Assembly: GCA_902800715.1 (NCBI GenBank)
Contig: CADCFN010000010.1
Location: 62,001-126,000 of the forward strand
Direction: 5' to 3'
DNA: 64,000 nucleotides
DNA from: an uncultured Bacteroidales bacterium
Lineage (GTDB): Bacteria > Bacteroidota > Bacteroidia > Bacteroidales > Muribaculaceae
The position numbers and the translations under genes are program-made. Below the pieces are notes generated by a model. It worked only from the letters and a program-made list of their open reading frames with translations, was not told the DNA's origin and searched no databases. Shown here in pieces: positions 5,238 through 26,666 of the stretch. The first letter of the stretch is position 1; each line of letters opens with the position of its first letter.

Positions 5238-5267
5238 AAAACAAGAAATACAAGAAATACAAATATA
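5238..5267 (+). repeat. Left inverted repeat of the GxxExxY cassette (three 9-bp units)
   Basis: Positions 5241-5267 hold three consecutive 9-bp units: ACAAGAAAT, ACAAGAAAT, ACAAATATA. The 25 bases at 5238-5262 match the reverse complement of 5728-5752 with one mismatch. The gene 5286-5720 lies between the two arms. Confidence 0.85.
5260..5267 (-). promoter_or_regulatory. Outward-facing -7 box (TATATTTG) within the cassette end, toward pafA
   Basis: Read on the minus strand, the third 9-bp unit contains TATATTTG, a full match to TAnnTTTG, 59 nt before the pafA start codon. No other -7 match is visible between here and pafA, so pafA may be transcribed from it. Confidence 0.4.
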
Positions 5268-5285
5268 AAATCTTATGGACAATTA

Positions 5286-5720
5286 TTATCTGTATCTGTG
5301 AACTAGACGCCCATATACATCTAGGATGTCTCTTTTCTCTGTATCATAAAAAAACCGTTGAATGTCAACATTTTTTGGAGCAAAGTTCACTAAAATTCCA
5401 CATGGGAGATTCAGTAGCCTCATGTAATTGAACAATTGGGCTCGGTGGTTGTTGTTCAACTCTTCAACTGACTTGCATTCAAGGACTATGTCATCCTTGC
5501 AAAGAAAGTCAACGCGATAGTGGGTTTTCATCTGTTGCCCATGATACCGTGGATAGAATGTGAGTTCTTTTTTGTAGGGAATTTGTGATTCCTCAAGTTG
5601 AATTTGCAAACCTTCTTGATAACAGTATTCGTTGAGTCCAGCACCGAGCTCTTTATGGACTTCATAGAGAGCGCCTACAACATCATAAACATGCTCCTTT
5701 AATTTGTGGACATCAATCAT
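5286..5720 (-). CDS. GxxExxY protein (PD-(D/E)XK-like fold)
   Basis: This 144-aa protein belongs to the GxxExxY family, named for the motif seen here as GLNEYCY (about residues 28-34). A PD-(D/E)XK nuclease-like core is present: Asp in YRVDF and an ExK pair in VLECKSVEEL, followed by HRAQLFNYMRLLNLPCGILVNF. The biochemical role of the family is not established, and nuclease activity is inferred only from the fold. There is no signal peptide, so it is probably cytoplasmic. The gene is bounded on both sides by inverted 9-bp-unit arrays, and its start is only 3 nt from the right array. It lies between lacI and pafA and looks like an inserted single-gene cassette. Confidence 0.85.
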   Translation of the reverse strand: MIDVHKLKEHVYDVVGALYEVHKELGAGLNEYCYQEGLQIQLEESQIPYKKELTFYPRYHGQQMKTHYRVDFLCKDDIVLECKSVEELNNNHRAQLFNYMRLLNLPCGILVNFAPKNVDIQRFFYDTEKRDILDVYGRLVHRYR

Positions 5721-5722
5721 TG

Positions 5723-5752
5723 TTTAATTGTATTTTTTGTATTTCTTGTTTT
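5723..5752 (-). repeat. Right inverted repeat of the GxxExxY cassette (three 9-bp units)
   Basis: Read on the minus strand, 5749-5723 is ACAAGAAAT, ACAAAAAAT, ACAATTAAA, mirroring the left array. The outer end is 5 bp from the lacI stop codon. Confidence 0.85.
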
Positions 5753-5757
5753 TAAAT

Positions 5758-6789
5758 TTATGGGTGGCGGGTGGTGCCGCGGATGACGAGGCGGGTCTTG
5801 ACGATGCGTTTCTCGGCGTGGTCAGGTGACAGAGTGCCTTCTACCAGACCGATAAGGATGTCGGCGGCCTCTTTTCCCACTTGGGTGCCGCGTTGCTCCA
5901 CCGTCGTCAGCATCGGATCGCACACCGTGGCACGGAAACCGTTGGTGAAGCCGCAGATGCTCACGTCGTCAGGGACGGTATAGCCCATACGCTTGACCAC
6001 CGAGAGGATGCCGATGGCGGTCTCGTCGTTGACGGCAAAGAAAGCGTCAGGGCGGTTCTCCATGTGCATCATGGCGGGCGTAATGCGTTCTGCATCAGCG
6101 CGGTTGTCGCAGATGCGCACCAGGTCCTCGTCGAGTGTCAGTCCATACTTGTACAGGGCGTCGCGGTAACCGTTGAAGCGATTCTTGGCAATCATCATAT
6201 TCATCGATGCCCCATAGAAGGCGATGCGTTTGCACCCCGTCTCGATAAGGTGTGACACGGCATTCATGGTGCCCATGTAATCATCGACCACCACGCGGCT
6301 GGCGTTGAGGGCGGGGCAGATGCGGTCATAGAATACCAGCGGCACGCCTGCCGCTGTGAGATGCTCAAAGTGGTCATAGCGCTCGGTGTCCTTGGCTTGG
6401 GACACGATGATGCCGCACACCTTGTTCTTCAGCATCGCCTCACATATCTGCACCTCGCGCTCATAACTCTCGTTACTTTTTGCCACAATCAGATGATAGC
6501 CTCGCGACGACGCCTCGCTCTCGATGCCATCGAGGATGGACGAGAAGTAGTAATGCACCAGTTCGGGCACAATCACTCCGATGGCACGCGAAGGGTTGCG
6601 ACGGCTGTGTCGCAGCTGCTCGGCAATGACATTGGGAAAATAGTTGTGCTCTCGGGCGAATTGTTGGATAGCCTGGCGGCGTTCGCGCGAGATGCTGGGG
6701 CTGTCACTCAAAGCCCTTGATACCGTGGCTACTGATACGCCCAACTCGCGGGCGATATCTTTCATAGTCATCTGTCGTTTATCATCCAT
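5758..6789 (-). CDS. LacI-family transcriptional regulator, probable regulator of the starch genes
   Basis: This 343-aa protein has the classic layout: an N-terminal LacI helix-turn-helix (residues about 7-55, MKDIARELGVSVATVSRAL) and hinge, followed by a periplasmic-binding-protein-like effector domain (IGVIVPELVHYYFSSILDGI onward). It is divergent from susC, with a 297-bp shared gap. That gap holds a GCAANCGNTTGC palindrome, a typical LacI-family half-site arrangement, and two more copies lie before the amylase and transporter operons. The protein is therefore inferred to sense a maltooligosaccharide-type ligand. This replaces the SusR regulator of Bacteroides thetaiotaomicron. Position relative to the promoters suggests activation of the target operons and possible autoregulation. 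Confidence 0.88.
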   Translation of the reverse strand: MDDKRQMTMKDIARELGVSVATVSRALSDSPSISRERRQAIQQFAREHNYFPNVIAEQLRHSRRNPSRAIGVIVPELVHYYFSSILDGIESEASSRGYHLIVAKSNESYEREVQICEAMLKNKVCGIIVSQAKDTERYDHFEHLTAAGVPLVFYDRICPALNASRVVVDDYMGTMNAVSHLIETGCKRIAFYGASMNMMIAKNRFNGYRDALYKYGLTLDEDLVRICDNRADAERITPAMMHMENRPDAFFAVNDETAIGILSVVKRMGYTVPDDVSICGFTNGFRATVCDPMLTTVEQRGTQVGKEAADILIGLVEGTLSPDHAEKRIVKTRLVIRGTTRHP

Positions 6790-6855
6790 TGTGATTCAAT
6801 TATAATAACTTAAGTTGGTTGGAGTTGATGGTAGTACTTAACCAGCAATCTGTTG

Positions 6856-6863
6856 CGAAATTA
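6856..6863 (-). promoter_or_regulatory. Probable -7 box (TAATTTCG) for lacI
   Basis: TAATTTCG on the minus strand is one base off TAnnTTTG and lies 66 nt before the lacI ATG. The operator at 6883-6894 falls about 20 nt upstream of it, over the -33 region, so the regulator could also repress its own gene. Confidence 0.4.
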
Positions 6864-6882
6864 CAACGAAAAAACGGACTAC

Positions 6883-6894
6883 GCAAACGATTGC
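6883..6894. promoter_or_regulatory. LacI-type operator upstream of susC
   Basis: GCAAACGATTGC is a palindromic LacI-family site of form GCAANCGNTTGC. Its right edge is exactly 56 nt before the -7 box at 6951. Confidence 0.7.
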
Positions 6895-6950
6895 ATTCAA
6901 TTAAACATTTTTTTAACATTAATAAAAAAGAAAGTTATATTTAATATTTC

Positions 6951-6958
6951 TATTTTTG
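6951..6958 (+). promoter_or_regulatory. -7 box (TATTTTTG) for the susC operon
   Basis: It matches TAnnTTTG and lies 128 nt before the susC start. No clear -33 element is seen, which fits a promoter that needs an activator. Confidence 0.6.
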
Positions 6959-7086
6959 CCATGTTTTATAGGCTGCAAAATAGGCCTTTAAACCTAGGTA
7001 GAAATATGGATATGACGATTTTTAGCGTTGTAAACGAATATTAAACGATTGATTACCAATATAATATTAACTTTAAAAATTTTAAA

Positions 7087-10000
7087 ATGAAGCAGGTAAA
7101 CATCAGAATTCCTATTAGGATTCTTACCCTCGTGATGGGACTCTTCCTGTCACTGGGAGCCTATGCACAGATTACTGTGAATGGCATTGTGAAGGATGCT
7201 ACCGGCGAGCCTGTCATCGGCGCGAGTGTTCGTGTCGCTGGCACCCAGCAGGGTACAGTAACCGACTTTGACGGTCTGTTCACCCTCGAAGGTGTGCCTC
7301 AGGGCGCCAAGCTCCAGATTTCGTCTATCGGCTACGACACCCATGAGGTGACGGCAGCCAGTGACTTAGTAATCACCCTGGCCGAGAGCACCCAGATGCT
7401 GCAAAATCTGGTGGTCATCGGTTATGGTGTCGTTAAGAAAAACGACTTGACCGGTTCGGTAGCGGCTCTCAAGCCCGATTCCAAGAACAAGGGTGTCGTT
7501 GTCAGCGCTCAGGACATGCTCGGCGGTAAGGTTGCCGGTGTGAGCGTGACCAGCAACAGTGGTGAGCCTGGTGGCGGTGCAACCATCCGCGTGCGTGGTG
7601 GTTCGTCACTGAACGCCAGCAACAACCCCCTCATCGTTATCGATGGTATCGCCATGGATAACAACGGTGTGAGCGGTCTGTCCAACCCCCTGTCACTGGT
7701 TAACCCCCAGGACATCGAGAGCTTCAACGTGCTGAAGGATGCTTCGGCCACCGCCATCTACGGTAGCCGTGGTTCTAACGGTGTCATCATCATCACCACC
7801 AAGAAAGGTCGTCGTGGCCAGCGTCCCGCCGTTTCCTATAACGGTAGTGTGACTTGGAGCATGAAGAAGAAGACCATCGACGTGATGACCGGTGATGAGT
7901 ACCGTGATTTCGTGAAGAAAATCTTCGAGAACAACACCCGTAGGGATAATGCCCTGTCGCTGCTGGGCAATGCCAACACCGACTGGCAGAAAGAGATTTA
8001 CCGCACTGCATTGAGCCATGACCACAACCTGACCGTGGCCGGTTCTGTAGGTGATTATCTGCCTTATCGTGTTTCGGCAGGCTTCACCGACCAGCAAGGT
8101 ATCCTCAAGACCTCTGACTTCAAGCGTTATACCGTGGCCTTGAACCTGAATCCTTCGCTGTTCAACGATCATCTGACCTTCAACCTCAACGGTAAGTTGG
8201 CTTGGACCAAGTCTCGTTGGGCTGACACTGGTGCTGTGGGTAATGCCGTTCGCATGGACCCGACGCAGCCTATTACCAGCAACAACCCGATGTATGACGG
8301 TACTGGTGGCTATTTCGAGTGGATGCAGCCCAATGGCTCTGATCCCGCTTGGCCCTATACCAAGAACACCAACGCACCCTACAACCCCGTGGCAATGCTC
8401 GACAACCATGACAACAGTGGTAAGACCCACTCGTTCATCGGTAGCGCCGACATCGATTACAAGATTCACGGCTTTGAGGACTTGAGGCTCCACCTCACCC
8501 TGGGTGGTGACTTCACCGGCGGTAATGGTCACAACATCAGTGCCAATATCTCTAACACCTCCAACTACTGGGGCAATAACAGCTATTATACCCAGAGCAA
8601 GGAGAACTTGCAGTTGAGTACTTATGCTCAGTACTACAAGGACTTCAACGACAAGCACCATTTCGACATCATGGCAGGTTACGAGTGGCAGCACAACTGG
8701 CGCAAGGAGTATAACGAGTCGTGGGGTACCTATCCCAGCACTTCGGAACTCTACTTCCTCGCTGCTGATGCCGAGAATGGCGCACTTAAGGTCGTTCCTG
8801 GCCAGTGGATTCCCGGAGCCCAGTACAACATTGGTGACTCCAAGGCCGGTGCCATCCGTGCCGAGGGCGTTTACCGCCAGAACAACGGTCTGGGTTACCG
8901 CACCGAGAACTACTTGGTATCGTTCTTTGGCCGTATGAATTACAGCTACGCTAGCCGCTACCTGTTGACCTTCACCATGCGTTATGACGGCTCGTCACGC
9001 TTCAAAAAGCACTGGGCTATGTTCCCGTCGGCAGCCTTTGCATGGAAGATCAACGAGGAAGCCTTCATGAAGGATGGTGCTTTCAGCGACCTCAAGTTGC
9101 GCCTCGGTTGGGGTAAGACCGGTCAGCAGGAAGGCATCGGTGACTATAACTACTTTGCCACCTACGTGATGAGCAACGGTAGCATGGGTTCCTTCTATGA
9201 TATTTCAGGTGACGGCTCCAAGGCTAAGCCCAATGTTTACAACCCCGAGCTCAAGTGGGAGACCACCACAACGACCAACGTCGGTATTGACTGGGGTATC
9301 ATGAACCAGCGTCTGAGCGGTAGCATCGACTGGTACTATCGCAAGACTACCGACCTGTTGAACTGGGCCACCTTCTCGGCTATGACCAACTTCAAGAACG
9401 CGTTCTACAAGAACATTGGTTCGCTGCGCAACACCGGTCTTGAGTTCACCTTGAACTGGAAGGCCATCTCTACCAATGACCTGTTGTGGACCATCGACTA
9501 TAACTTGACCTACAACAGCAATAAGGTCCTCGAGCTCATCAACGACGATCCCAGCTACTTCGTGACCACTGGTAGCATCGGTATCAACGGTCCTGCTCAG
9601 GCTCACGTAGTAGGTCATCCCTCGAACAGCTTCTATGTTTACCAGCAGGTCTATGACCAGGCCGGCAAGCCCATCGAGGGCCAGGTGGTTGACCGCAACG
9701 GTGACGGTGTGATCAGTGACGCCGACAAGTACCTGTACAAGTCGCCGTGGGCTCCTGTAACCATGGGTCTGGGTTCGCGCCTTGACTGGAAGAATTGGGA
9801 CTTCGGTTTCAACCTGCGTGCCAGCATCGGCAACTACGTGTTCAACAATGTGATGCAGGGTTATCACAACGTGAGCCCCGCTGCAGTGTTCGAGGAGGTT
9901 GGTGCCTTCTATCTGAACAACCGTCCCCGCACGTCGGTTGAGATGGGCTGGCAGACCTATAACAACCACGCTAACTTCAGCGACTACTGGGTACAGAACG

Positions 10001-10224
10001 CTTCGTTCCTCAAGTGTGACAACATCACCCTGGGTTACAGCTTCAACAACCTGTTCAAGCGTGGCAGTTACAATGGTGTCGGTGGCCGTCTCTACGGTAC
10101 CGTTTCCAATGTGTTCTGCATCACCAAGTATGATGGTATCGATCCCGAGGTATTCGGTGGTATCGGCGGTGACATCTTCCCCCGTCCCATCTCATTCATC
10201 GTTGGTTTGAGCCTGAACTTCTAA
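7087..10224 (+). CDS. susC: SusC, TonB-dependent starch oligosaccharide transporter
   Basis: This 1045-aa complete SusC/RagA receptor has a signal peptide (to about residue 27, GAYAQ) and a carboxypeptidase-regulatory-like domain (about 28-105). Next comes a plug domain with PLIVIDGIAMDNNG and SFNVLKDASATAIYGSRGSN, then a 22-strand barrel ending in the aromatic-terminal LSLNF. It transports maltooligosaccharides across the outer membrane together with SusD. Assignment to starch comes from the neighbours: susD, two SusE/F proteins, an amylase, a neopullulanase and a pullulanase. It is the first gene of susC-susD-susE-susF, 39 nt ahead of susD. A LacI-type operator and a -7 box lie upstream. 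Confidence 0.95.
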   Translation: MKQVNIRIPIRILTLVMGLFLSLGAYAQITVNGIVKDATGEPVIGASVRVAGTQQGTVTDFDGLFTLEGVPQGAKLQISSIGYDTHEVTAASDLVITLAESTQMLQNLVVIGYGVVKKNDLTGSVAALKPDSKNKGVVVSAQDMLGGKVAGVSVTSNSGEPGGGATIRVRGGSSLNASNNPLIVIDGIAMDNNGVSGLSNPLSLVNPQDIESFNVLKDASATAIYGSRGSNGVIIITTKKGRRGQRPAVSYNGSVTWSMKKKTIDVMTGDEYRDFVKKIFENNTRRDNALSLLGNANTDWQKEIYRTALSHDHNLTVAGSVGDYLPYRVSAGFTDQQGILKTSDFKRYTVALNLNPSLFNDHLTFNLNGKLAWTKSRWADTGAVGNAVRMDPTQPITSNNPMYDGTGGYFEWMQPNGSDPAWPYTKNTNAPYNPVAMLDNHDNSGKTHSFIGSADIDYKIHGFEDLRLHLTLGGDFTGGNGHNISANISNTSNYWGNNSYYTQSKENLQLSTYAQYYKDFNDKHHFDIMAGYEWQHNWRKEYNESWGTYPSTSELYFLAADAENGALKVVPGQWIPGAQYNIGDSKAGAIRAEGVYRQNNGLGYRTENYLVSFFGRMNYSYASRYLLTFTMRYDGSSRFKKHWAMFPSAAFAWKINEEAFMKDGAFSDLKLRLGWGKTGQQEGIGDYNYFATYVMSNGSMGSFYDISGDGSKAKPNVYNPELKWETTTTTNVGIDWGIMNQRLSGSIDWYYRKTTDLLNWATFSAMTNFKNAFYKNIGSLRNTGLEFTLNWKAISTNDLLWTIDYNLTYNSNKVLELINDDPSYFVTTGSIGINGPAQAHVVGHPSNSFYVYQQVYDQAGKPIEGQVVDRNGDGVISDADKYLYKSPWAPVTMGLGSRLDWKNWDFGFNLRASIGNYVFNNVMQGYHNVSPAAVFEEVGAFYLNNRPRTSVEMGWQTYNNHANFSDYWVQNASFLKCDNITLGYSFNNLFKRGSYNGVGGRLYGTVSNVFCITKYDGIDPEVFGGIGGDIFPRPISFIVGLSLNF

Positions 10225-10263
10225 TTGCCTTGACACATTAATTTATTAATTAGATTGATCACA

Positions 10264-11916
10264 ATGAATAAGTTTTTCAAATATATCATGTGTGCTGCGG
10301 TCCTGTTGATGATGAGTGGATTGTCCTCATGTGTCAAGGACTTGGACGTAGAGCCTATTGACCCGTCACTGCAGAGCGATGTCACTCCCGAGCAGCTGTT
10401 CAACAAGTGCTATTCGGTATTCGCTACCTCGGGTAACAACGGTGGTGACGAAAATGTTGACGTCGACGGTCTTGATGGTGGTTTCCAGCACAAGTATCGC
10501 CAGATGTGGAACTCTAACGAGTTGACCACCGATGAGGCTATCTGCGGTTGGGGTGATGAGGGTATCCCCTCCTACTGCCACAATACCTACGATGCCAGTC
10601 ACCCGATGCTTCGCGGCTACTACTATGGCCTGTGTATCGGTATCACCTTCTGCAACCAGTATCTGCAGGTCTATGGTGACTATAATTCCACGATGACTGC
10701 CGAGGTCCGCTTCCTGCGCGCCTTCCAGTTCTATCTGTTGACCGATGCCTTTGGCAACATTCCTTTTGCAACCACTATTTCGGGTGATAACCCCGAGCAG
10801 TACACCCGTGCACAGGTGTGTGAGTTTATCGAGAAGGAGCTGAAGGCTATTATCGGCGAGGATTCCAATGACAATGCTACTATCCTGAACGACCCGAAGC
10901 CCAAGAAATATGGTGAGGATGGTTATGGCCGCATTGATAAGGCTGCCGCTTGGATGCTGCTTTCCCGCATCTACCTGAACTCTCAGGTGTACACGGGCAC
11001 TCCCCGCTGGCAAGATGCTGCTAACTATGCCAAGAAGGTCATGGATTCACCTTACAAGCTGCACACTGTGGGCTACAATACCAATGGCCGTCAGTTCACG
11101 GCTTACCAGATGCTGTTCATGGGTGATAACAGCAAGACCGATGCCGCCTATGAGGCTGTGTTCCCTGTTATCCAAGATGGTACTCGCACCACCTCGTGGG
11201 GCGGTACCAACTTCCTGATCTGCTCTACCGCCGATGCTGACATTCATCCCAACCGCTACGATGAGACTGAGGTGAATGGTCTGTACAACAACAGTGCTTG
11301 GAGTGGTAACCGTGCTCGTCCCGAGCTGGTTCGTCTGTTCTTCCCCAACGATGACGCTCCTTCGGGCCATGCCTATGACCTTGCCGAGATCGCTGAGGAT
11401 GACCGCGCTCTGTTTGAGACCGAGGGCCGTTACCTCAATGTGAATGATGAGTCCAACTTCAAGTATGGCTATGCTGTTGCCAAGTTCAACAACTTCATGT
11501 GCGACGGCAGCAAGGGCAGTGATATTACCTTTGCTGATTCTCACCTGTTCTACATGCGTGTGGCTGAGGCCTATCTGACCTATGCAGAGGCCCTTACCCG
11601 CATGAGTGGTGATGTTGCTCCCGCCGAGGCCGTGGCTGCTATCAATGCAATCCGTGGCCGTGCCCACGCCCTGCAGCGCAACCGCTACACGCTCGACCAG
11701 ATTCTCGATGAGTGGGGCCGTGAGTTCTACTTCGAGGGCCGTCGTCGTGTGGATTTGATTCGCTTCAACAAGTTTGGTGGCGACACCGGCTACCAGTGGC
11801 AATGGAAGGGTGGCGTTTACGCAGGTCGCGACTTCGAGGCATTCCGCAATGTGTTTGCTATCCCCACCGATGACCTGATTGCTAACTCCAATCTGTCACA
11901 GAATCCCGGTTATTAA
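10264..11916 (+). CDS. susD: SusD, starch-binding outer-membrane lipoprotein
   Basis: This 550-aa SusD/RagB lipoprotein has a lipobox with lipidated Cys (GLSSC) at residue 23. The family C-terminal region is clear: MRVAEAYLTYAEALTRMSG, then AINAIRGRAHA, then EFYFEGRRRVDLIRFNKFGG. SusD caps SusC and binds glycans through aromatic residues on a TPR-helix scaffold. The ATG at 10264 is chosen over an in-frame TTG at 10255 because it starts the signal peptide directly. It follows susC closely, so the two are co-transcribed. A 7-bp-unit hairpin array separates it from the next gene. Confidence 0.95.
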   Translation: MNKFFKYIMCAAVLLMMSGLSSCVKDLDVEPIDPSLQSDVTPEQLFNKCYSVFATSGNNGGDENVDVDGLDGGFQHKYRQMWNSNELTTDEAICGWGDEGIPSYCHNTYDASHPMLRGYYYGLCIGITFCNQYLQVYGDYNSTMTAEVRFLRAFQFYLLTDAFGNIPFATTISGDNPEQYTRAQVCEFIEKELKAIIGEDSNDNATILNDPKPKKYGEDGYGRIDKAAAWMLLSRIYLNSQVYTGTPRWQDAANYAKKVMDSPYKLHTVGYNTNGRQFTAYQMLFMGDNSKTDAAYEAVFPVIQDGTRTTSWGGTNFLICSTADADIHPNRYDETEVNGLYNNSAWSGNRARPELVRLFFPNDDAPSGHAYDLAEIAEDDRALFETEGRYLNVNDESNFKYGYAVAKFNNFMCDGSKGSDITFADSHLFYMRVAEAYLTYAEALTRMSGDVAPAEAVAAINAIRGRAHALQRNRYTLDQILDEWGREFYFEGRRRVDLIRFNKFGGDTGYQWQWKGGVYAGRDFEAFRNVFAIPTDDLIANSNLSQNPGY

Positions 11917-11942
11917 TGTGATTGTAATGTCTAACAATTAAA

Positions 11943-12019
11943 AGTTGTCAGTCATCAGTCGTCAGTTGTCAGCGGCATTCGCAATCAACTGAAAACTGGA
12001 AACTGAAAACTGAAAACTT
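11943..12019 (+). repeat. 7-bp-unit hairpin array between susD and susE
   Basis: Left-arm units such as GTCAGTC, ATCAGTC, GTCAGTT face right-arm units AACTGAA, AACTGGA, AACTGAA, AACTGAA across a short GC-rich loop. The arms are complementary in 7-bp steps. The right arm ends about 20 nt before the susE ATG. Confidence 0.8.
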
Positions 12020-12039
12020 AAAATAATGACAATAAGAAA

Positions 12040-13227: not shown

Positions 13228-13238
13228 ATTAATAACCA

Positions 13239-13319
13239 AGTTTTCAGTCATCAGTTTTCAGTTGTCAGCGGCATCCGCATTCAACTGAAAACTGAGAACT
13301 GAGAACTGAAAACTGAGAA
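13239..13319 (+). repeat. 7-bp-unit hairpin array between susE and susF
   Basis: Left-arm units TTCAGTC, ATCAGTT, TTCAGTT, GTCAGCG and right-arm units AACTGAA, AACTGAG (repeated five times in total) are complementary around a GCGGCATCCGC mini-hairpin. The core is nearly identical to the array before susE. It ends 8 nt before the susF ATG. Confidence 0.82.
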
Positions 13320-13326
13320 ATAAAAA

Positions 13327-14400
13327 ATGAAGAAGTTTTTATATATTGCTGCAATGGGCTTGTTGCTGGCAAGCTGTACCGAGGATTTCAAGGATTGGGC
13401 AGAGCCCCAGAGCAATCCCCAGGCCGAAGTAATTACCTTCGGAACTGGTTCGGTAACTCCTGCAGACGTAATTGACTTTGCTGAGGTGACAGGAGATCGC
13501 GTTAAGGTGTGCAACATCACTGCTCCGGCTACCACTGACACCACTTATCATCCTGAATATACTATCTATCTCAATGGCGAGCCTTTCGTTCTGGGTTTAG
13601 ACGGTACGATGGATGCTGATGAACTTTCAAACTATGTGGTTTCGCTCTTTGGCAAGGCTCCCGAGCTCCGCGTACTCCTCGCCCGTGTGATGTGCGTGAT
13701 GAGCAATGGTGTCACTGCTACCACAATCATGAGCGAACCGTTTGATGTTAATGTTATCCCCGCTCCCATCGAAGTGCCCGACTTGTGGTATCTGGTGGGT
13801 TCGTGCATCGGTGACGGTTCATGGGGCAACGATCCCGCCAACGTGGGTACCGCTCTCATTCCCATGTACGCCGAGGCTGAGGACTACACGATTCTTAACT
13901 ATGTTGGTTTCTTCCCTGCCGGCCAGGGCTTCAAGATTATCCACAATCCCGGCAACTGGGACGAGCAGTGGGGTCAGGGTGCTGACGGCTACGTGAAGAA
14001 CGATGGCGGCAGTGGCAACATTGAGGTGCCTGCCGACGGCTACTACGTGATTACCTACGACATGAACGCCGAGACGCTGTCAGTTGAGCCCTACGATGGT
14101 TTGGTAGGTGTCTATGGCATGATTACCATGCCTGGCGGTTATCAGGATTGGGACGTTAGCGGTAACGCTATGACGCCCATGAGCACTGTGGTCGAGAATC
14201 ACGACTGGATTATGAAGGACGTGACCTATGATAACACCGAGCTCAAGTTTGCCAATGGCACATGGGCTGTGAACTGGGGCGCAACGACCTTCCCCGTGGG
14301 TGTGGGCACCCAGGGCGGTCCCAACATCCCTGTTGAGGCTGGAACCTACACTGTTGTGTTCAACGACATCATGGGCAGGTACTACTTCATTATGCAGTAA
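13327..14400 (+). CDS. susF: SusF/SusE-like outer-membrane starch-binding lipoprotein
   Basis: This 357-aa lipoprotein has a lipobox at about residue 16 (LLLASC). A short N-terminal SusE-type domain (about 20-140) precedes two starch-binding domains (about 150-255, starting LWYLVGSCIGDGSWGND, and 258-357, starting GMITMPGGYQDW). It is shorter than the 485-aa SusF of B. thetaiotaomicron, which has an extra module, so calling it SusF rather than a second SusE is by position only. It is the last gene of the susCDEF unit and is followed by a GC-rich hairpin and a new promoter region. Confidence 0.82.
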   Translation: MKKFLYIAAMGLLLASCTEDFKDWAEPQSNPQAEVITFGTGSVTPADVIDFAEVTGDRVKVCNITAPATTDTTYHPEYTIYLNGEPFVLGLDGTMDADELSNYVVSLFGKAPELRVLLARVMCVMSNGVTATTIMSEPFDVNVIPAPIEVPDLWYLVGSCIGDGSWGNDPANVGTALIPMYAEAEDYTILNYVGFFPAGQGFKIIHNPGNWDEQWGQGADGYVKNDGGSGNIEVPADGYYVITYDMNAETLSVEPYDGLVGVYGMITMPGGYQDWDVSGNAMTPMSTVVENHDWIMKDVTYDNTELKFANGTWAVNWGATTFPVGVGTQGGPNIPVEAGTYTVVFNDIMGRYYFIMQ

Positions 14401-14425
14401 GCACTTGTCATAACTGAGAATTCCC

Positions 14426-14459
14426 GGCGGGGACGTGCCACATGAGGCGCGTCCCCGCC
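14426..14459 (+). terminator. GC-rich hairpin after susF
   Basis: A perfect 10-bp stem (14426-14435 with 14450-14459) with a 14-nt loop lies 25 nt after the susF stop. A T-rich stretch comes about 30 nt later rather than directly, so it may be a weak terminator or mRNA-stabilising hairpin. Confidence 0.5.
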
Positions 14460-14461
14460 TT

Positions 14462-14473
14462 GCAATCGGTTGC
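14462..14473. promoter_or_regulatory. LacI-type operator upstream of the amylase gene
   Basis: GCAATCGGTTGC matches GCAANCGNTTGC. It lies 58 nt before the -7 box at 14532, almost the same geometry as at susC (56 nt) and the transporter operon (56 nt). Confidence 0.62.
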
Positions 14474-18054: not shown

Positions 18055-18080
18055 TTCTTTTGGATTCTATTAAGAATAAT

Positions 18081-18116
18081 CAAAGACCGCGTGACTGTCA
18101 ATCTACGCGGTCTTTG
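18081..18116. terminator. Bidirectional terminator between GH53 and methyltransferase genes
   Basis: A perfect 12-bp stem (18081-18092 with 18105-18116), 12-nt loop and following TTTATTGTTTATT tract serve the convergent genes on both sides. Confidence 0.85.
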
Positions 18117-18145
18117 TTTATTGTTTATTCTTGTCGCACTCTGGA

Positions 18146-18778: not shown

Positions 18779-18807
18779 TCTTCACTGATATCTCGTAAAT
18801 TTTGTCG

Positions 18808-18815
18808 CAAAATTA
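18808..18815 (-). promoter_or_regulatory. -7 box (TAATTTTG) for the methyltransferase gene
   Basis: It is a full TAnnTTTG match on the minus strand, 29 nt before the ATG at 18778. Confidence 0.55.
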
Positions 18816-18869
18816 CTAAATTCGTGAAGATCAGCCAAACTTTGACAAGACATTTTTATAAAGGAAATG

Positions 18870-18926
18870 CAAGACAGCAATTCACCGTTTCCTGTAGGTG
18901 CAGGAAAGCGGTGAATTGCTGTCTTG
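18870..18926 (-). terminator. Long terminator hairpin after susA
   Basis: An 18-bp outer stem (18870-18887 with 18909-18926) continues after one bulged base into a 7-bp inner stem with a 6-nt loop. It lies 9 nt beyond the susA stop. Confidence 0.85.
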
Positions 18927-18934
18927 TTCGAGAT

Positions 18935-20800: not shown

Positions 20801-20835
20801 TTTGGTTGTTGGATTGGTTATACATTATATATCTG

Positions 20836-20843
20836 CAAATATA
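20836..20843 (-). promoter_or_regulatory. -7 box (TATATTTG) for susA
   Basis: It is a full TAnnTTTG match 35 nt before the susA ATG. Confidence 0.55.
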
Positions 20844-20917
20844 GCAACTTTCCCTCTCTTGACAAAATAATGGTGTAATTACAATCGCCTAATGTTAGAT
20901 TCTTCCAGAAAAATGAT

Positions 20918-20925
20918 TATCTTTG
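20918..20925 (+). promoter_or_regulatory. -7 box (TATCTTTG) for the C10 peptidase gene
   Basis: It is a full TAnnTTTG match 38 nt before the ATG at 20964 and supports that start. Confidence 0.58.
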
Positions 20926-20963
20926 CAAAATGATACATAATATGCACTTTTATTGATTTGAAT

Positions 20964-23318
20964 ATGAGAAATCGGATACTTTTAATTGCACTGTTTTGTG
21001 CGGTGATGTTGTGCCCTTCTTGGGCAGCGACCATCAGTGAGAGTAGGGCCCGTCAAGTTGCTGCCGACTTTATGTCCGCCCATGTCAGGAAAGTGAATGG
21101 AGGAAGTATGCAGCTGGCTCGTAAGGCGCCTTCAATCAATGCGACGACCCCTGCTCCCTATTATGTGTTTAACGCCGGTAGCAGCAATGACGGATTTGTC
21201 ATTGTGGCTGGTGATGATAGAGTGCCTCTGGTGCTTGGCTATAGTGATCAGGGATCGTTTGATGTCACCTCGGTGCCCGAGGCTATGGAAGAATGGCTTG
21301 ATGGTTATGCCCAACAGATTGCAGCCTTGGACCAAGGCGGCAAGATGGCAGCACACATCAGTTCATCAACTCCGATTCTTCCCATGGTGGATGCAGTCTG
21401 GTCCCAAAATCCACCTTTTAACACAATGCTTCCTTTCTTGTCCAATGGCAAACATGCCTATGTGGGCTGTGTGGCAACGGCGATGGCCCAGGTGATGTAC
21501 TACTGGAAATGGCCCAAGAGGTCGGAGATTGTTCCTTACTATCGTAGCGAGACATTAGGTGTCGAAATGCCTGCTTTGCCGGCTGTGGACTTTAATTGGG
21601 ATGCCATGCAGAACACCTATCTCACGAGCGATAGCCTTAGCGCCGAAGGACGAGCTGCTGCTCAACTTTCCCTCTATTGCGCCCAAGCAGTACAAATGGA
21701 CTTCATGAAAAATTCATCTTCAGCTCAAACAAGTGACGTTCCGGCTGCTATGTCTCAATATTTTGGCTATTCGCCCAATGCCAAAGCTGTCAGACGTATC
21801 TTCTACACAACTCCGGAATGGGAGCAACTCGTCCTTGACGAGTTAGAGGCTGGACGTCCAGTCATCTATAGCGGTCACAAGGAATCATCGGGCCATTCCT
21901 TTGTGTGTGATGGTTATGATGGTCAAGGAAGATTCCACTTCAATTGGGGATGGAATGGCAAGAGTAATGGTTATTTCCTGCTCAATGTGCTCAATCCTGA
22001 CCTAGAAGGAACAGGGGGAGCCGGTGGTTCATACGGCTATGTCTCAAATCAATACATTGTTGCTGGGTTGGAACCTGGTGAAACCTATGTGGAAGATTTA
22101 GAAGTCGCTGTCAGAGGTGTTGAAATACAGGACTTTAAGAGAACACGCACCTTGTCAAGTCAGAATTTCACGCTGACTCAGGCCACTCAGTTTGGAAATT
22201 ATATGAATAATCCCATTGACTTTTACTATGGATGGGGACTGTATCAAGGCAACCAATTGCTTTCGGTGCTTGAGAACGGAATCAAGTATGGTCTGCCTTC
22301 CTGGTATTATAGCACAATCACTTCAACCTTGTCATTTGGTAGTGGTATCACTAGTGGCTCATACCGCATATTGCCTATCTATAAAGATCTCTTTGAGGAA
22401 GAATGGGCTCCATGTGTAGGTAGTGATATTTCTTTCTACGAAGTGATAATTAGTGGAAACAACTGTACTATAATCGGGCATGGCGCTGGCATGGCTCCGT
22501 ACTATCAGGTCAACAATATTACTGCGACTGGTCATATGCATCCCACTAGGCCGGTGGACATCACTCTTAATGTGACTAATCTGGGAAATACCCGTAACGA
22601 CATCATTTATATGTTTGCCAAGAATGAACTTGTTGCGATGGGTTTTGTCGACCTCAATAAGAATGAGAGTGGCAATGTCGTTTACCGTTATGAGCCAGAG
22701 GCTGTTGGTACAGTGGACTTAAAGTTCACAACCGATGAGGAGGGTAATAATGTGCTGGCGACCAAGACGATTACGATTAACCCGATGCCCGCTGCCTCGC
22801 TCACGGGACAGGCAACAGCCCTCAATGTGACGAATGCCGGTGATAAGATAATAACCGCCAATTACTTTGGCATGGATGTGCAAATAACCAATGTCGGCAC
22901 CAATACCTATGACGAAGATATCACGATTAAACTCTATAAGCGGGTTTATGGCACCACGGGAACATTGGTACAGACCTTAAGCCAGCATTTGGTGCTTGCT
23001 CCTCAGGAGACAAAGAAATTGACCTTCCACATGGATAACGTCATCGATGGTTGGAAGTACTTTGCTAAAGCCTACTACTATAGCAACGCCGAGCAGATTA
23101 ATTTGGCTAATGTTAGCACCCACACCATTATCTTCCCTGCTAGTGGACCCATCAAGGGTGATGTCAACAAAGACGGAGAGGTATCGATTGCCGACGTTAA
23201 CGCCGTCATCTACATGATTACAAAGGGCGTACAGGACCTCGATGGTGACGTGAATAATGACGGTGAGGTGACCTTAGCCGACGTGAATGCTGTTATCAGC
23301 ATTATCTTGGCCAATTAA
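20964..23318 (+). CDS. C10-family cysteine peptidase (streptopain-like) with C-terminal dockerin-like repeats
   Basis: This 784-aa exported protein has a signal peptide (to about residue 21). A Spi/C10 inhibitory propeptide covers about 22-130 (GFVIVAGDDRVPLVLGYSD), followed by a papain-like C10 catalytic domain. Predicted catalytic residues are Cys169 (YVGCVATAMAQVMYYWKWP) and His311 (GHSFVCDGYDG), with the FHFNWGWNGKSNGYF stretch after them. About 300 residues of beta-rich adhesin-like domains come next. Two dockerin-like loops end the protein (GDVNKDGEVSIADVNAV and GDVNNDGEVTLADVNAV). The ATG at 20964 is preferred over a TTG at 20958. It is likely a secreted or surface protease, and its T9SS dependence is unknown because no classic T9SS C-terminal domain is seen. 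Confidence 0.92.
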   Translation: MRNRILLIALFCAVMLCPSWAATISESRARQVAADFMSAHVRKVNGGSMQLARKAPSINATTPAPYYVFNAGSSNDGFVIVAGDDRVPLVLGYSDQGSFDVTSVPEAMEEWLDGYAQQIAALDQGGKMAAHISSSTPILPMVDAVWSQNPPFNTMLPFLSNGKHAYVGCVATAMAQVMYYWKWPKRSEIVPYYRSETLGVEMPALPAVDFNWDAMQNTYLTSDSLSAEGRAAAQLSLYCAQAVQMDFMKNSSSAQTSDVPAAMSQYFGYSPNAKAVRRIFYTTPEWEQLVLDELEAGRPVIYSGHKESSGHSFVCDGYDGQGRFHFNWGWNGKSNGYFLLNVLNPDLEGTGGAGGSYGYVSNQYIVAGLEPGETYVEDLEVAVRGVEIQDFKRTRTLSSQNFTLTQATQFGNYMNNPIDFYYGWGLYQGNQLLSVLENGIKYGLPSWYYSTITSTLSFGSGITSGSYRILPIYKDLFEEEWAPCVGSDISFYEVIISGNNCTIIGHGAGMAPYYQVNNITATGHMHPTRPVDITLNVTNLGNTRNDIIYMFAKNELVAMGFVDLNKNESGNVVYRYEPEAVGTVDLKFTTDEEGNNVLATKTITINPMPAASLTGQATALNVTNAGDKIITANYFGMDVQITNVGTNTYDEDITIKLYKRVYGTTGTLVQTLSQHLVLAPQETKKLTFHMDNVIDGWKYFAKAYYYSNAEQINLANVSTHTIIFPASGPIKGDVNKDGEVSIADVNAVIYMITKGVQDLDGDVNNDGEVTLADVNAVISIILAN

Positions 23319-23350
23319 TTACCGTCGGTAGTTATCCTGGAAAGAATTTA

Positions 23351-23391
23351 GTGCAACAAACGCAGTCATTTGAACTCTGCGTTTGTTGCAC
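23351..23391. terminator. Bidirectional terminator between C10 peptidase and murF
   Basis: A perfect 15-bp stem (23351-23365 with 23377-23391), an 11-nt loop and T-rich flanks lie between convergent genes. Confidence 0.9.
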
Positions 23392-23421
23392 TTGTTTTAT
23401 TCCCTTTAGAGCAACAGCGAA

Positions 23422-24735
23422 TTACAGCACCTCGGGGAGCTGGAACAGGCGGTTGCCGTTGGAGCCTTTGATGAGGATGTAGTAGCCCTCAGGTCGGTCG
23501 GCAGCAATGGCGGCCTTGACTTGCTCCACGTCGTCAAATTTGCGGTAGGGGCAATCAATATCCTTGAACTCGTCACCTACAAGCCACACCTCGTCAAAGG
23601 GACAGTTGGCCAGTTTTTCCACTAAACGACGGTGCTCCTCGGCACTGCTGTCGCCCAGTTCACGCATCTCGCCCAGAATCGCCATCTTGGGAGCCACTTC
23701 CATCAGGCAGAAGTTGTCGAGCGCTGCCACCATCGATGTGGGATTGGCATTGTAAGCGTCTACTACTAGGTGGTTATAGGGCGTCTCGGTGAGTTGTGAG
23801 CGGTTGTTGGCAGGAACGTAGTTCTCGATTGCGTGGCAAATCTGTTCAGGTGAAACCTCAAAGTGCAGACCTACGGTAATCGCAGCCAACACGTTGTCAA
23901 GGTTATAACTGCCGATAAGGTGGGTGGCCACCTCATGCCAGTCGCTGTTGGTTGAGTGCCATTTCAGGCGCAGGAATGGGTCACAGGCTATAATTTGGCC
24001 ATAGACTGCTGCTCCGACCTTGTTCTCATCACGGGTGTAGTACTCGGCTTTGACACCTTGGGGCAGAATGTCCATCAGGTACTTGTTGTCGGCGTTGATG
24101 AAGATGACGCTATCCTTGCGCTTTGCCAGGTTTTCATAGAGTTCGCCCTTGGTGCGGATGACGCCTTCGAGCGAGCCGAAGCCCTGCAGGTGTGCCTTGC
24201 CCACATTGGTGATGAGGCCACAGGTGGGTTCGGCTGTCTCGGCAAGAGTCTTGATGTCGCCAGGATGGCTGGCGCCCATCTCGATGACGGCGATTTCGTC
24301 CATGACGCTTAGGCGGAGCAGCGTCTTAGGCACGCCTACATCGTTGTTGAAGTTGCCTTCGGTCGCCATCTCGTCATAGCGCTCGGTGAGGACGGCGCGC
24401 ACGAGTTCCTTGGTCGTTGTCTTGCCGTTGGTGCCCGTGATGGCTATCACGGGGATGTCAAAACGGCGACGGTGCTCACGTGCCAGGTCTTTATAAGCCT
24501 GTAGCGTGTCGGGCACAAGAATCATCTGTTTGTCACCGTGATAGTTGTTGTAAATCTGCTCGTCATCAACGATGGCGACGGCACAACCCTTGTCAAGTGC
24601 CTGTACTGCAAACTGGTTGCCGTCAAACGATTCACCTTTCAATGCAATGAAAATGCTGCCCTCGGGGCAGTCGCGACTATCGGTCGTGATGCAAGGATGT
24701 TGCTCGTAGATGGCGTAAAGTTCTTTGCTATTCAT
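23422..24735 (-). CDS. murF: UDP-N-acetylmuramoyl-tripeptide--D-alanyl-D-alanine ligase
   Basis: This 437-aa Mur ligase adds D-Ala-D-Ala to UDP-MurNAc-tripeptide in cytoplasmic peptidoglycan precursor synthesis. The ATP-binding loop ITGTNGKTTTKELV lies near residues 99-112. The family motifs EMGASHPGDI and the Asn/Asp region VVDAYNANPTSM are present, and the C-terminal domain starts near ILGEMRELG. Its length is normal for Bacteroidota. It is divergent from ddl, which makes the D-Ala-D-Ala that MurF uses, with back-to-back -7 boxes in an 87-bp gap. Confidence 0.95.
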   Translation of the reverse strand: MNSKELYAIYEQHPCITTDSRDCPEGSIFIALKGESFDGNQFAVQALDKGCAVAIVDDEQIYNNYHGDKQMILVPDTLQAYKDLAREHRRRFDIPVIAITGTNGKTTTKELVRAVLTERYDEMATEGNFNNDVGVPKTLLRLSVMDEIAVIEMGASHPGDIKTLAETAEPTCGLITNVGKAHLQGFGSLEGVIRTKGELYENLAKRKDSVIFINADNKYLMDILPQGVKAEYYTRDENKVGAAVYGQIIACDPFLRLKWHSTNSDWHEVATHLIGSYNLDNVLAAITVGLHFEVSPEQICHAIENYVPANNRSQLTETPYNHLVVDAYNANPTSMVAALDNFCLMEVAPKMAILGEMRELGDSSAEEHRRLVEKLANCPFDEVWLVGDEFKDIDCPYRKFDDVEQVKAAIAADRPEGYYILIKGSNGNRLFQLPEVL

Positions 24736-24757
24736 AATCTGTTCATTTTATTTGCCA

Positions 24758-24765
24758 CAAAATTA
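24758..24765 (-). promoter_or_regulatory. -7 box (TAATTTTG) for murF
   Basis: It is a full TAnnTTTG match 22 nt before the murF ATG. Confidence 0.58.
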
Positions 24766-24787
24766 CAATAAAAGGAGAATTTTTGTG

Positions 24788-24795
24788 TAATTTTG
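24788..24795 (+). promoter_or_regulatory. -7 box (TAATTTTG) for ddl
   Basis: It is a full TAnnTTTG match 27 nt before the ATG at 24823. It overlaps a longer TTG-started reading, which argues for the ATG. Confidence 0.6.
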
Positions 24796-24822
24796 CACCT
24801 GAATTTTAATGTGCGCACAAAA

Positions 24823-25824
24823 ATGAACGACACCAAAAGAACCATAGCCATCGTGTGTGGTGGCGATTCCTCTGAGTATGAGGTGTCCCTGCGTTCTGCA
24901 CAGGGCATCGACTCGGCATTTGACCACGAGCGTTACAACGTCTATATCGTTTTAATCAGGAAGGATGATTGGCATGTTAACCTGCCTGACGGCAGCACGC
25001 CTGTCATCGACAAGAACGATTTCTCTTTTATGAAAGACGGTCAGAAAATCCGTTTTGATTATGCTTATATCACCATTCACGGCACCCCCGGTGAAAACGG
25101 TGTGCTTCAGGGTTATTTTGACATGATTGGACTGCCTTATTCGACCTGCAACGTGCTGGTTGAGGCTCTGACGTTCCACAAATTTGCCCTGAACAACTAC
25201 CTGAAGGCTTTCGGTTGCTCAGTGCCCGATAGCATCCAGGTGCGTCGCGGTGTGCCTCATGGTTGGACCGCCGAGAAGGTCAAGGACTATCTGGGCATGC
25301 CTTGCTTTGTTAAGCCTACTGCCGATGGTTCGAGCTTCGGCGTGACCAAGGTGAAAAGCTGTGATCAGCTGGACGAAGCCATGGAGTTTGCCTTTAAGCA
25401 GTGCGACAATGTGATGATTGAGCGTTTCCTGGATGGAACCGAGGTCACTGTGGGCTGCTATAAGACCAAGGATAAATCGGTTGTCTTTCCCGTGACCGAG
25501 GTTGTGACCGACAACGAGTTCTTTGATTATGATGCTAAGTACAACGGTCAGGTGGAGGAGATTACTCCTGCCCGCATCAGCGACGAATTGACCGCAGCCC
25601 TGCAGGCCGAGACGTCACGCATCTATGACATCCTGCACTGCAACGGCATCATCCGCATCGACTTTATCATCACCAAGAACCCCGACGGCACCGACCACAT
25701 CAACCTGCTGGAAATTAACACAACCCCAGGCATGACCGCTACCAGCTTCATTCCCCAGCAAGTGCGCGCCGCCGGACTGAGTCTGACAGACGTCCTCACC
25801 GACATCGTCGAGAATCAATTCTAA
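24823..25824 (+). CDS. ddl: D-alanine--D-alanine ligase
   Basis: This 333-aa ATP-grasp ligase joins two D-alanines for peptidoglycan. Features seen are the N-terminal IAIVCGGDSSEYEVSLRSA, the grasp-loop region PCFVKPTADGSSFGVTKV, and the metal/substrate end IRIDFIITKN with LLEINTTPGMTATSF. The start at 24823 is chosen because the promoter box lies between a TTG at 24793 and this ATG. It pairs functionally with the divergent murF. Its 3' end is followed at once by the 9-bp-unit array of the four-helix-bundle cassette. Confidence 0.95.
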   Translation: MNDTKRTIAIVCGGDSSEYEVSLRSAQGIDSAFDHERYNVYIVLIRKDDWHVNLPDGSTPVIDKNDFSFMKDGQKIRFDYAYITIHGTPGENGVLQGYFDMIGLPYSTCNVLVEALTFHKFALNNYLKAFGCSVPDSIQVRRGVPHGWTAEKVKDYLGMPCFVKPTADGSSFGVTKVKSCDQLDEAMEFAFKQCDNVMIERFLDGTEVTVGCYKTKDKSVVFPVTEVVTDNEFFDYDAKYNGQVEEITPARISDELTAALQAETSRIYDILHCNGIIRIDFIITKNPDGTDHINLLEINTTPGMTATSFIPQQVRAAGLSLTDVLTDIVENQF

Positions 25825-25827
25825 CCA

Positions 25828-25949
25828 ACGGATAAAACAGAAGTAACGGAAATAACGGAATAAACGGAGGTGACGGGCAATCCCGTTCCCTCCGTTTTAT
25901 CTATTTTCTCCGTTCTCTCCGTTTTATCCGTAATATCCGTTTTATCCGT
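25828..25949. repeat. Opposed 9-bp-unit arrays on the downstream side of the four-helix-bundle gene
   Basis: Plus-strand units run in phase from 25828 to 25881 (ACGGATAAA, ACAGAAGTA, ACGGAAATA, ACGGAATAA, ACGGAGGTG, ACGGGCAAT). Seven inverted units run from 25887 to 25949, six of them ending in CCGT. Together they form a long imperfect hairpin whose outer ends are CCAACGG and CCGTTGG. The array runs into the end of the neighbouring gene and encodes part of its tail. Confidence 0.88.
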
Positions 25950-26625
25950 CCCGTTGGTCAAGTTGGGCTCTTAGCCGTGTTATCTCTTGCTTGAGGCCTG
26001 CGATTTCTTGTGCTTGACGCTCGATGATTTCCTTCTGGGTAGCACGTTGGTCCAGACGGGCTGCTGTCATGCGTTCGCGTATGCCTCCCTCCGTCGTGAA
26101 TTCACGGTCTTTCCGCTCGATGTATTTGTTGAGAGCAGCATCCACTTGATGGCACAGGCAAATGGCCATATTCGCCATTTCTTCATCGTTCATCTTGGGC
26201 AGCAGGTCCTTATAGTCCTCATATTGGCTATGCTTGCGGCAAAAGTCGAGCATGGCTTTATATCGCGGATTCTTGCCAAACCATTCGGTATATCCCATGC
26301 GCTTGATATAGTCCTGGTAGTCTTCCAGTAGTTCCTTGTTGCTGCCACGGGCGACACCCAGCAGTTTCAACTCTATTTCCATTGATGTTTGCCCGTCGCT
26401 GCTGCCCTCGACAATGTTTTGCTTGGTGCTGCGTGCGGCTTGCACCATCTGGTCGACAGTGCGGTCGCCATATTGCTTCAAGAACCTCTGGCAGAACACT
26501 CGAGTCAACTGATATAACACGTCACTTCGTTGATAAAAACGTAGTTCAGTATACATCACGCCCTTGCGCAACACGCTGGCAGTTCCGTCATCGTAGTGGT
26601 TGATTTTTGGTCTCTTGTCATCCAT
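25942..26625 (-). CDS. Four-helix-bundle protein (S23/IVP-like) with suffix domain
   Basis: This 227-aa protein resembles proteins of the four-helix-bundle family first seen in 23S rRNA intervening sequences (central region YQRSDVLYQLTRVF, then QMVQAARSTKQNIVEGSSDG and ELKLLGVARGSNKELLEDY). It also carries the extra C-terminal suffix domain found in Bacteroidota and a short coiled coil at the end (EIIERQAQEIAGLKQEITRL). The function of the family is unknown. It has no signal peptide. Arrays of ACGGA-type 9-bp units flank it, the downstream one overlapping its last codons. It sits between ddl and the starch operon and looks like an inserted cassette, not part of either unit. Confidence 0.82.
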   Translation of the reverse strand: MDDKRPKINHYDDGTASVLRKGVMYTELRFYQRSDVLYQLTRVFCQRFLKQYGDRTVDQMVQAARSTKQNIVEGSSDGQTSMEIELKLLGVARGSNKELLEDYQDYIKRMGYTEWFGKNPRYKAMLDFCRKHSQYEDYKDLLPKMNDEEMANMAICLCHQVDAALNKYIERKDREFTTEGGIRERMTAARLDQRATQKEIIERQAQEIAGLKQEITRLRAQLDQRDG

Positions 26626-26630
26626 TGTAA

Positions 26631-26666
26631 ACGGAGAATACGGAGTTGACGGATATTACGGACTTA
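26631..26666 (+). repeat. 9-bp-unit array on the start side of the four-helix-bundle gene
   Basis: Four in-phase units, ACGGAGAAT, ACGGAGTTG, ACGGATATT, ACGGACTTA, begin 6 nt from the start codon. The 14 bases at 26649-26662 are the exact reverse complement of 25927-25940 on the other side of the gene. Confidence 0.88.

Follow-up and report, generated by a model that had tools for sequence, protein, structure and literature searches.

The window analysed here, 64,000 nucleotides (nt) of an uncultured Muribaculaceae bacterium (G000:C10:62001-126000, within contig CADCFN010000010.1), carries two unrelated small genes that each lie among arrays of short tandem repeats: one encodes a GxxExxY protein resembling PD-(D/E)XK nucleases and the other, S4, a four-helix-bundle (4HB) protein with a suffix domain. 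We read each such locus as a one-gene mobile cassette whose array ends are specific to its own protein, and we put the probability of this reading at about 0.6. As far as sequence can tell, the cassette gene is a GxxExxY nuclease-like gene, a short 4HB gene or a 4HB gene with suffix, set between usually inverted arrays; the layout, the joint inheritance of gene and arms, the alternation of cassettes at one site, the inversion of a whole cassette and the presence of gene-less copies can all be followed in the genomes compared (G, C and L numbers denote genomes, contigs and loci; our own genome, G000, has 3.3 Mb in 27 contigs and is 88.9% complete).

Tandem Repeats Finder (TRF) placed period-9 arrays on both sides of the GxxExxY gene, with the unit GAAATACAA and its complement, and three arrays of ACGGnnnnn or its complement at the S4 gene, namely a hairpin behind the stop codon that reaches into the final bases of the gene, plus one array at the start codon (Table 1). 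Across the window, five period-9 and eight period-7 array segments scored at least 12 (one of the five, 50584-50612, is coding sequence), and since five first-order Markov shuffles gave 0.0, the arrays are not a product of chance. The initial annotation, made from the sequence alone, was right that both genes are bracketed by period-9 arrays, a design that proved far wider among relatives, and its details need some amendment. It described the units as AC, two purines and five variable bases, and those five bases hardly vary in the GxxExxY arrays; its two inverted arrays per gene hold for GxxExxY and not for S4, with three arrays including the hairpin; its gaps of 3 and 6 nt to the start codon measure, from the TRF edge, 7 nt for GxxExxY (or 3 nt with the degenerate unit ACAATTAAA included) and 5 nt for S4; and period 9, which it took as the common constant, gives way to 8 and 10 as well in relatives with matched arms.

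Table 1. Cassette genes, arrays and hairpins in the window, numbered from its first letter.
Feature	Position	Strand	Details
GxxExxY cassette, 3'-side array	5238..5262	no strand	ACAAGAAAT units, period 9; TRF edges 5237-5262
GxxExxY gene, PD-(D/E)XK nuclease-like, 144 amino acids	5286..5720	minus	TIGR04256 E 1.6e-36; PF13366 E 3e-33
GxxExxY cassette, 5'-side array, inverted partner, adjoins start codon	5728..5753	no strand	
Gene-less period-7 hairpin, arms CAGTTnT / AACTGAn	11932..12023	no strand	apex CAGCGGCATTCGCAATC
Gene-less period-7 hairpin, CAGTTnT / AACTGAn kind	13239..13334	no strand	apex CAGCGGCATCCGCATTC
Outer arm of ACGG/CCGT hairpin 3' of S4 gene	25827..25868	no strand	
Inner (CCGT) arm of S4 hairpin, overlaps gene end	25883..25966	no strand	TRF edges 25891-25949
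S4 gene (four-helix-bundle with suffix domain), 227 amino acids	25942..26625	minus	TIGR04258 E 3e-18; TIGR02436 E 5.9e-7
ACGG array adjoining S4 start codon	26631..26662	no strand	
Gene-less period-7 arrays TAGTTAA and AACTGAA in tandem	36352..36430	no strand	
Gene-less period-7 arrays TTAGGAA and ACTAGCA	39669..39832	no strand	

The same layout recurs throughout our own genome, in which TIGR02436 has six matches and TIGR04256 seven, the latter amounting to six genes (one is in two pieces). By eye, repeated units flank 11 of the 12 genes on either side, each gene having a unit of its own (the exception is L011): AGTTTAG, TAGTTAA and AATTAGA, all of period 7, for the short 4HB genes; TTAAGGACT (period 9), ACGGnnnnn (9) and TTGTCnGACn (10) for the S4 genes; and AATT-, ACAAGAAAT-, AAACAAC- and GAATT-type units (9) and ACGCTAAG (8) for the GxxExxY genes.

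Arms were scored by comparing the 160 bp upstream of a gene with the reverse complement of the 160 bp downstream, the threshold of 15 being the 99th percentile of 315 control genes from the same genome (3/315 above). The loci analysed are a part of the matches, the best-scoring ones (at most 30 per search) plus 60 GxxExxY or 4HB loci picked by hand; L012 with L013 (a single split gene), L254 (lacking an open frame) and L155, L177 and L198 (short or N flanks) were removed before counting. Inverted arms exceeded 15 in 27 of 33 short 4HB genes and 28 of 34 GxxExxY genes of the genus, in 3/3 S4 genes and, in the wider sets, in 51 of 77 4HB genes from many phyla and 19 of 29 GxxExxY genes from the phylum, as compared with 0-1.3% for shuffled flanks, 0-19% for mismatched pairs within a family, and 1/97, 3/38 and 7/112 for neighbouring open reading frames (ORFs) of the same loci. 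The array threshold was passed on both flanks by 26/33 short 4HB genes of the genus, 3/3 S4 genes and 35/77 4HB genes of the wider set, and by 8/315 controls. The named 4HB set, the best 80 loci among the matches listed, includes Bacteroidota, Bacillota, Planctomycetota, Acidobacteriota, Pseudomonadota, Chloroflexota, Nitrospirota, Verrucomicrobiota, Kiritimatiellota and candidate phyla. An account confined to the two window loci is ruled out, the design being general.

Plasmids carry such genes as well: a search of 72,556 records found 4HB genes in 33, and GxxExxY genes in 8 plasmid records. Ten cyanobacterial-plasmid 4HB genes from those 33 have an array on at least one side, with an inverted-arm score above 15 in five and direct arrays instead in L241; in three of the ten (L233, L241, L238) the array-flanked gene sits between cas genes, cas6/cas4 in two records and cas10/cmr3 in one. 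Viral contigs scanned with both window proteins yielded no confirmed relative, such scans detecting close relatives only, and 50,697 phage records gave no match to the one 4HB protein used as query (GxxExxY was not searched in phages). Many GxxExxY arms from Bacteroidota outside the genus (L243-L272) share a CACRGAG-type core at a spacing of 8-11. Arrays of L111 (G033) are the same as those of L153, and the 4HB protein of L318 (G035) is identical to that of L154.

The period goes with the protein family, mostly 7 for short 4HB and mostly 9 for GxxExxY. Counted in cassettes with matched arms and sufficient array score, it is 7 in 73 of 87 4HB cassettes (8 in 11, 6 in 2, 9 in 1), 9 in 23 of 35 GxxExxY cassettes (8 in 8, 10 in 4) and 9 in four of seven S4 cassettes (8 in 2, 10 in 1). 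On the 4HB tree the period changes 9 times, compared with a mean of 13.5 after shuffling, and 0/200 shuffles were as low; numerous forks of this tree lack resolution, and near-copies raise the clustering. The arrays also have a polarity: AG outnumbers CT in upstream 4HB arrays (41/50 from many phyla, 34/40 from the genus) and CT outnumbers AG downstream (37/44 and 38/41). A period that varies by family and is mostly below 10 fits poorly with simple phasing along one face of double-stranded DNA and favours reading unit by unit, perhaps on a single strand; if arrays and proteins are cognate, the rule for such repeats would be that the protein family sets the period.

The link between gene and arms was examined by pairing cassettes whose host flanks have no DNA similarity (short or diverged flanks could pass this filter) and comparing the upstream arm of the one with the downstream arm of the other. 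Among GxxExxY cassettes (n=61), 929 pairs had proteins less than 40% identical, and the share of these with common arms was 0.00 (rounded); it was 30% at 60-70%, 61% at 70-80% and 90% above 80%. Cassettes with 4HB genes (n=51) had common arms in 7%, 4% and 1% of pairs in the bins below 50%, 9% at 50-60%, 67% at 60-70%, 89% at 70-80% and 3/3 pairs above 80%. The correlations between arm and protein (rho 0.54 for GxxExxY and 0.22 for 4HB) were reached by 0/300 permutations each. Copies within the same genome shared arms in 3/3 pairs at 70% identity or more and in 0/6 at 60-70%. Because related proteins share a unit at unrelated sites and distant ones do not, the arrays travel with the gene.

Single sites tell a similar story. 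The window GxxExxY gene lies between pafA-like and lacI-like genes, a site with a match in 62 of 101 genomes; the 30 of these loci that were examined comprise 19 GxxExxY cassettes, six gene-less loci with single arrays, hairpins or remnants (L033-L035, L037, L040, L041), three without one flank and two more distant loci (L042, L043). Protein clades here match the unit on both arms, with ACAATAAAT in clade A (6), ACAAGAAAT in B (8), ACAACTTnA in C (4) and GACAAGAAA in D (1), and L024 has an additional ACAAT-type array beside its B cassette. The 19 proteins cluster in the genus tree with weak support (0.277). A tree of the two neighbouring genes has six sister pairs (support at least 0.98), of which five carry different cassette types, about the share expected from random labels (71% of pairs, by our own arithmetic); in one of the sister pairs, G000 (B) and G036 (A), the flanks are 90.7% and the GxxExxY proteins 66% identical. 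Synonymous sites of GxxExxY are saturated (proportion of synonymous differences, pS, 0.85 within type, as against 0.55 for lacI), pS falls below that of lacI in just 2/49 same-type pairs, and dN/dS is about 0.05 within type. On these substitution patterns the protein is conserved and its types are old, which is compatible both with replacement by unsampled donors and with allelic lineages of long standing.

The S4 gene of the window stands between ddl and pulA. Thirty loci of this site, out of a longer match list, comprised seven S4 cassettes with ACGG arrays, six short 4HB cassettes with GATTAGT arrays, two gene-less ACGG hairpins (L062 with a gene remnant), one locus with single ACGG remnants, two with other genes, and 11 in which the flanks are unjoined on the locus; L070 (G035) has ACGG-type arrays around an unrelated ORF instead of S4. 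In the flank tree (18 loci) the pairs G054/G002 (0.999) and G048/G024 (1.0) join a 4HB to an S4 cassette, and the pairs G057/G058 and G017/G007 carry agreeing cassettes. Different cassettes at one site are seen among sister species at both pafA-lacI and ddl-pulA. The entire cassette is inverted between unchanged neighbours in G023 and in L132 of G043 (by eye). In L108 and L314 the TAG stop codon of the upstream gene falls on the first TAGTnnn unit of the array, which would suit an insertion that started at the stop.

Many arrays have no gene. In 464 kb of our own genome, 69 arrays lie outside ORFs of at least 400 bp (33 of period 7 and 21 of period 9), and most bracket nothing. Inverted pairs within 1 kb around an ORF were found by script at the window S4 gene, L004 on C1 and L003 on C3, and by TRF at the window GxxExxY gene, which the script overlooked because its left array lies inside an opposite-strand ORF; direct pairs around other ORFs occur twice within 1 kb and once at 1.45 kb. 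The initial annotation had proposed just such a search and expected small cassettes with a limited set of cargo, and all four inverted pairs do hold 4HB-type or GxxExxY genes. It had also named arrays lying mostly without genes between them as evidence to the contrary, and in part this is what we find; we interpret such arrays as gene-less derivatives of cassettes.

A SusE-like gene sits between two period-7 hairpins 1.2 kb apart; the two gene-less period-7 hairpins of the window in Table 1 are near-identical and lie immediately 5' of SusE-like and SusF-like genes. Period-7 hairpins with the apex CAGCGGCATnCGCAnTC occur in 11 of 61 genus genomes (reversed-pattern control, 0), with 20 copies in G009, 11 in G052, 10 in G000, 6 in G036, 5 in G033, 4 in G032, 3 in G054 and one in each of four others, and a 4HB gene with the unit of this hairpin is present in G009 (L109) and G033 (L111). 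At the C1:188-kb site of our own genome a hairpin was seen by eye in all 20 loci examined, nine of the CAGCGGCATnCGCAnTC-apex kind or its variants, nine of an AATT/GCGAATT kind and two others; the outer end of the AATT/GCGAATT hairpins of relatives matches our own gene-bearing L012/L013. The window also has three gene-less arrays (ATGAGAAnA and GGGAA units) at 41089-41356, forming inverted pairs within 300 bp, and 37- and 65-bp tandem repeats (37746-37838 and 54585-54721) unrelated to the cassette arrays.

Among 89 relatives of the GxxExxY protein, E31, D71, E81, Q95 and Y99 are conserved in 100% and K83 in 99%, so that the D and ExK of a PD-(D/E)XK core (D71, E81, K83) are present in 99-100%, alongside the PF13366 match; the nuclease assignment rests on profiles and motif, and the protein may cut. 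Sequence search of the PDB gave no match for the window GxxExxY protein and, for 4HB, gave 2gsc and 2rld; 2gsc (XCC0516), which matches the 4HB profile at E 8.7e-38, has been reported as a ring made up of five four-helix bundles (PMC4990558). The S4 gene matches TIGR02436 above its cut-off and PF05635 at E 1.7e-6, under the gathering score. We propose that a cassette protein would recognise the arrays of its own cassette, with each protomer or binding step taking up one unit, perhaps on a folded single strand, and hence would set the period. Array hairpins, whether or not they enclose a gene, would be copied to new sites between genes. The GxxExxY protein would probably cut, and the 4HB protein would probably form an Avd-like ring through which chemistry of the host or of a reverse transcriptase is recruited; for hairpins that lack a gene, movement would occur in trans, as is supposed for REPINs via RAYTs.

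Several observations weigh against mobile cassettes. Arms in direct orientation also exceed 15, in 4/33 4HB and 5/34 GxxExxY genes of the genus, 3/3 S4, and 14/77 4HB and 7/29 GxxExxY genes of the wider sets, and 26 of the 77 cross-phylum 4HB genes fall under the inverted-arm threshold. GxxExxY arrays are short, with both flanks at the array threshold in only 6/34 (genus) and 1/29 (phylum), so their arms are often just two or three units. S4 cassettes (n=13; three pairs reach 60% identity) show no correlation of arms with protein (rho -0.02). GxxExxY synonymous sites are saturated even within a type, so the exchange at pafA-lacI cannot be called recent. G000, G036 and G052 are rich in AACTGA hairpins and have no 4HB gene of that unit among the loci read; L112, L124 and L125 bear related units, and the apex pattern is absent from their genomes. 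In Coxiella, the S23 protein is described as probably not made in vivo (PMC4990558). Finally, the comparisons revealed neither an insertion event nor a clean empty site nor a target duplication: junctions sought by eye at pafA-lacI, ddl-pulA, our own C1:188-kb site and a tRNA-side site had no readable target-site duplication, the intergenic DNA being too diverged.

The arrays could instead be operators, bound by the protein in its own mRNA or promoter so as to regulate itself and other array-bearing genes, with transfer being ordinary and homologous. Arrays adjoining start codons, and gene-less arrays directly 5' of SusE- and SusF-like genes, would suit this, as would the regulatory interpretation of TAACTGA arrays near start codons (PMC4679880) and the report that xanthomonad GGGAATC-type heptamers are mostly at conserved positions and not linked to mobile elements (PMC4692102). 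We nevertheless think it unlikely, since it leaves unexplained the second inverted array behind the gene, the same arms at unrelated sites, the alternation of cassettes and the patchy copy numbers. A homing account, in which the hairpins are old intergenic elements and genes insert into those with a preferred unit, draws on the L109 and S4 cassettes, whose gene lies within one hairpin arm, and on the occurrence of hairpins with the same unit and no gene, both at the same site (L056, L034) and at other places in the genome. It is made distinctly improbable by the fixed polarity of 4HB arrays, by the near-matched arms around the gene, with no hairpin apex, at most loci read, and by the gene remnants beside L062 and L040, which show loss of the gene from a full cassette.

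The initial annotation itself favoured a single recombinase that recognises all array ends, with cargo freely swapped. Different cargo families at one site and the shared general design accord with that model; unit and period go with the protein lineage, and no recombinase lies within the cassettes read. Because units follow the protein, we reject a shared recombinase as the main account and consider it very improbable; judged from the sequences, the annotation's other option, the array as a binding site for the cargo protein, fits better. That the arrays are passive products of replication slippage in intergenic DNA, as has been suggested for heptamers (PMC4692102), is scarcely credible: gene-less arrays are common enough (the 69 counted above), but arms match in 66-82% of cassette genes as against about 1% of controls, the protein predicts the unit and polarity is conserved. 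Slippage alone is refuted as a full account by the control genes and neighbouring ORFs; it may lengthen arrays.

The protein-specific mobile cassette, if correct, would be a mobile element of a kind that has drawn little notice, and could account for puzzling short repeats of bacterial genomes. IVP-type 4HB and GxxExxY genes are widespread and have no assigned role, and the origins of heptamer arrays and of rRNA intervening sequences are left open in the accounts cited here (PMC4990558, PMC4692102, PMC4679880). Should arrays and proteins be cognate pairs, every genome of this kind would contain a library of binding sites of its own, open to simple tests of binding and of copy number. A wider claim, which we make tentatively and at slightly less than even odds, is that these elements form a class crossing phyla, with several unrelated protein families and with ends consisting of short tandem arrays that their own protein reads one unit at a time; the elements and their gene-less hairpins would then be a main source of bacterial heptamer-type repeats, and the intervening sequences (IVS) of 23S rRNA would be the subset that landed in rRNA. 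No description of array-ended GxxExxY or 4HB cassettes was found in the open-access PMC literature, preprints excluded.

Like the cassettes, 23S rRNA IVS have a small 4HB (S23/IVP) ORF in a loop between inverted ends. The Coxiella IVS is described as having tandem heptamers (GACAGAT, AG core) 5' of the S23 start codon, in strain-dependent number, and the idea of earlier authors that it is a mobile element is cited there (PMC4990558); rRNA insertions of the candidate phyla radiation (CPR) are reported to contain IVP ORFs, with ORF-bearing and ORF-less insertions at the same sites (PMC11270868). The S4 gene matches the IVP/S23 four-helix bundle and the GxxExxY gene has no such match. Unlike IVS, the cassettes here lie between protein genes and not within 23S rRNA, their ends are arrays with a unit private to each, and GxxExxY is a different fold. 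Eighteen IVP genes have been reported in cas loci (PMC3936711), and array-flanked plasmid 4HB genes between cas genes may account for such earlier reports.

The cassette ends also resemble known heptamer arrays (cyanobacterial short tandemly repeated repetitive [STRR] sequences, TAACTGA, GGGAATC), which are likewise 7-bp intergenic arrays. On Nostoc-type plasmids, 4HB genes are flanked by such 7-bp arrays, which are probably the classic STRR units. Heptamer arrays are described with no linked gene in the portions of PMC4679880 and PMC4692102 available to us, where "helix bundle" and "S23" each occur 0 times. The 4HB proteins may be kin to Avd of diversity-generating retroelements as well; Avd and IVP proteins are reported to be alike in sequence and structure, and Avd to be essential to reverse-transcriptase retrohoming (PMC10053308), a kinship that we treat as a lead only towards a possible route of DNA movement. 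In REPIN/RAYT systems, inverted short repeats form hairpins and a repeat-flanked gene is the suspected mover (PMC3116915); the cassettes share with these (TnpA-REP) systems dispersed gene-less inverted doublets that form hairpins, and differ in having tandem arrays instead of single palindromes, several gene copies per genome and no Y1-type (HUH) transposase, the cassette genes matching only GxxExxY/PDDEXK_3 and 4HB models. Our best reading is that the cassettes resemble REPIN/RAYT in their logic and are akin to IVS, while standing apart from the Y1 transposase that defines the one and the rRNA location that defines the other.

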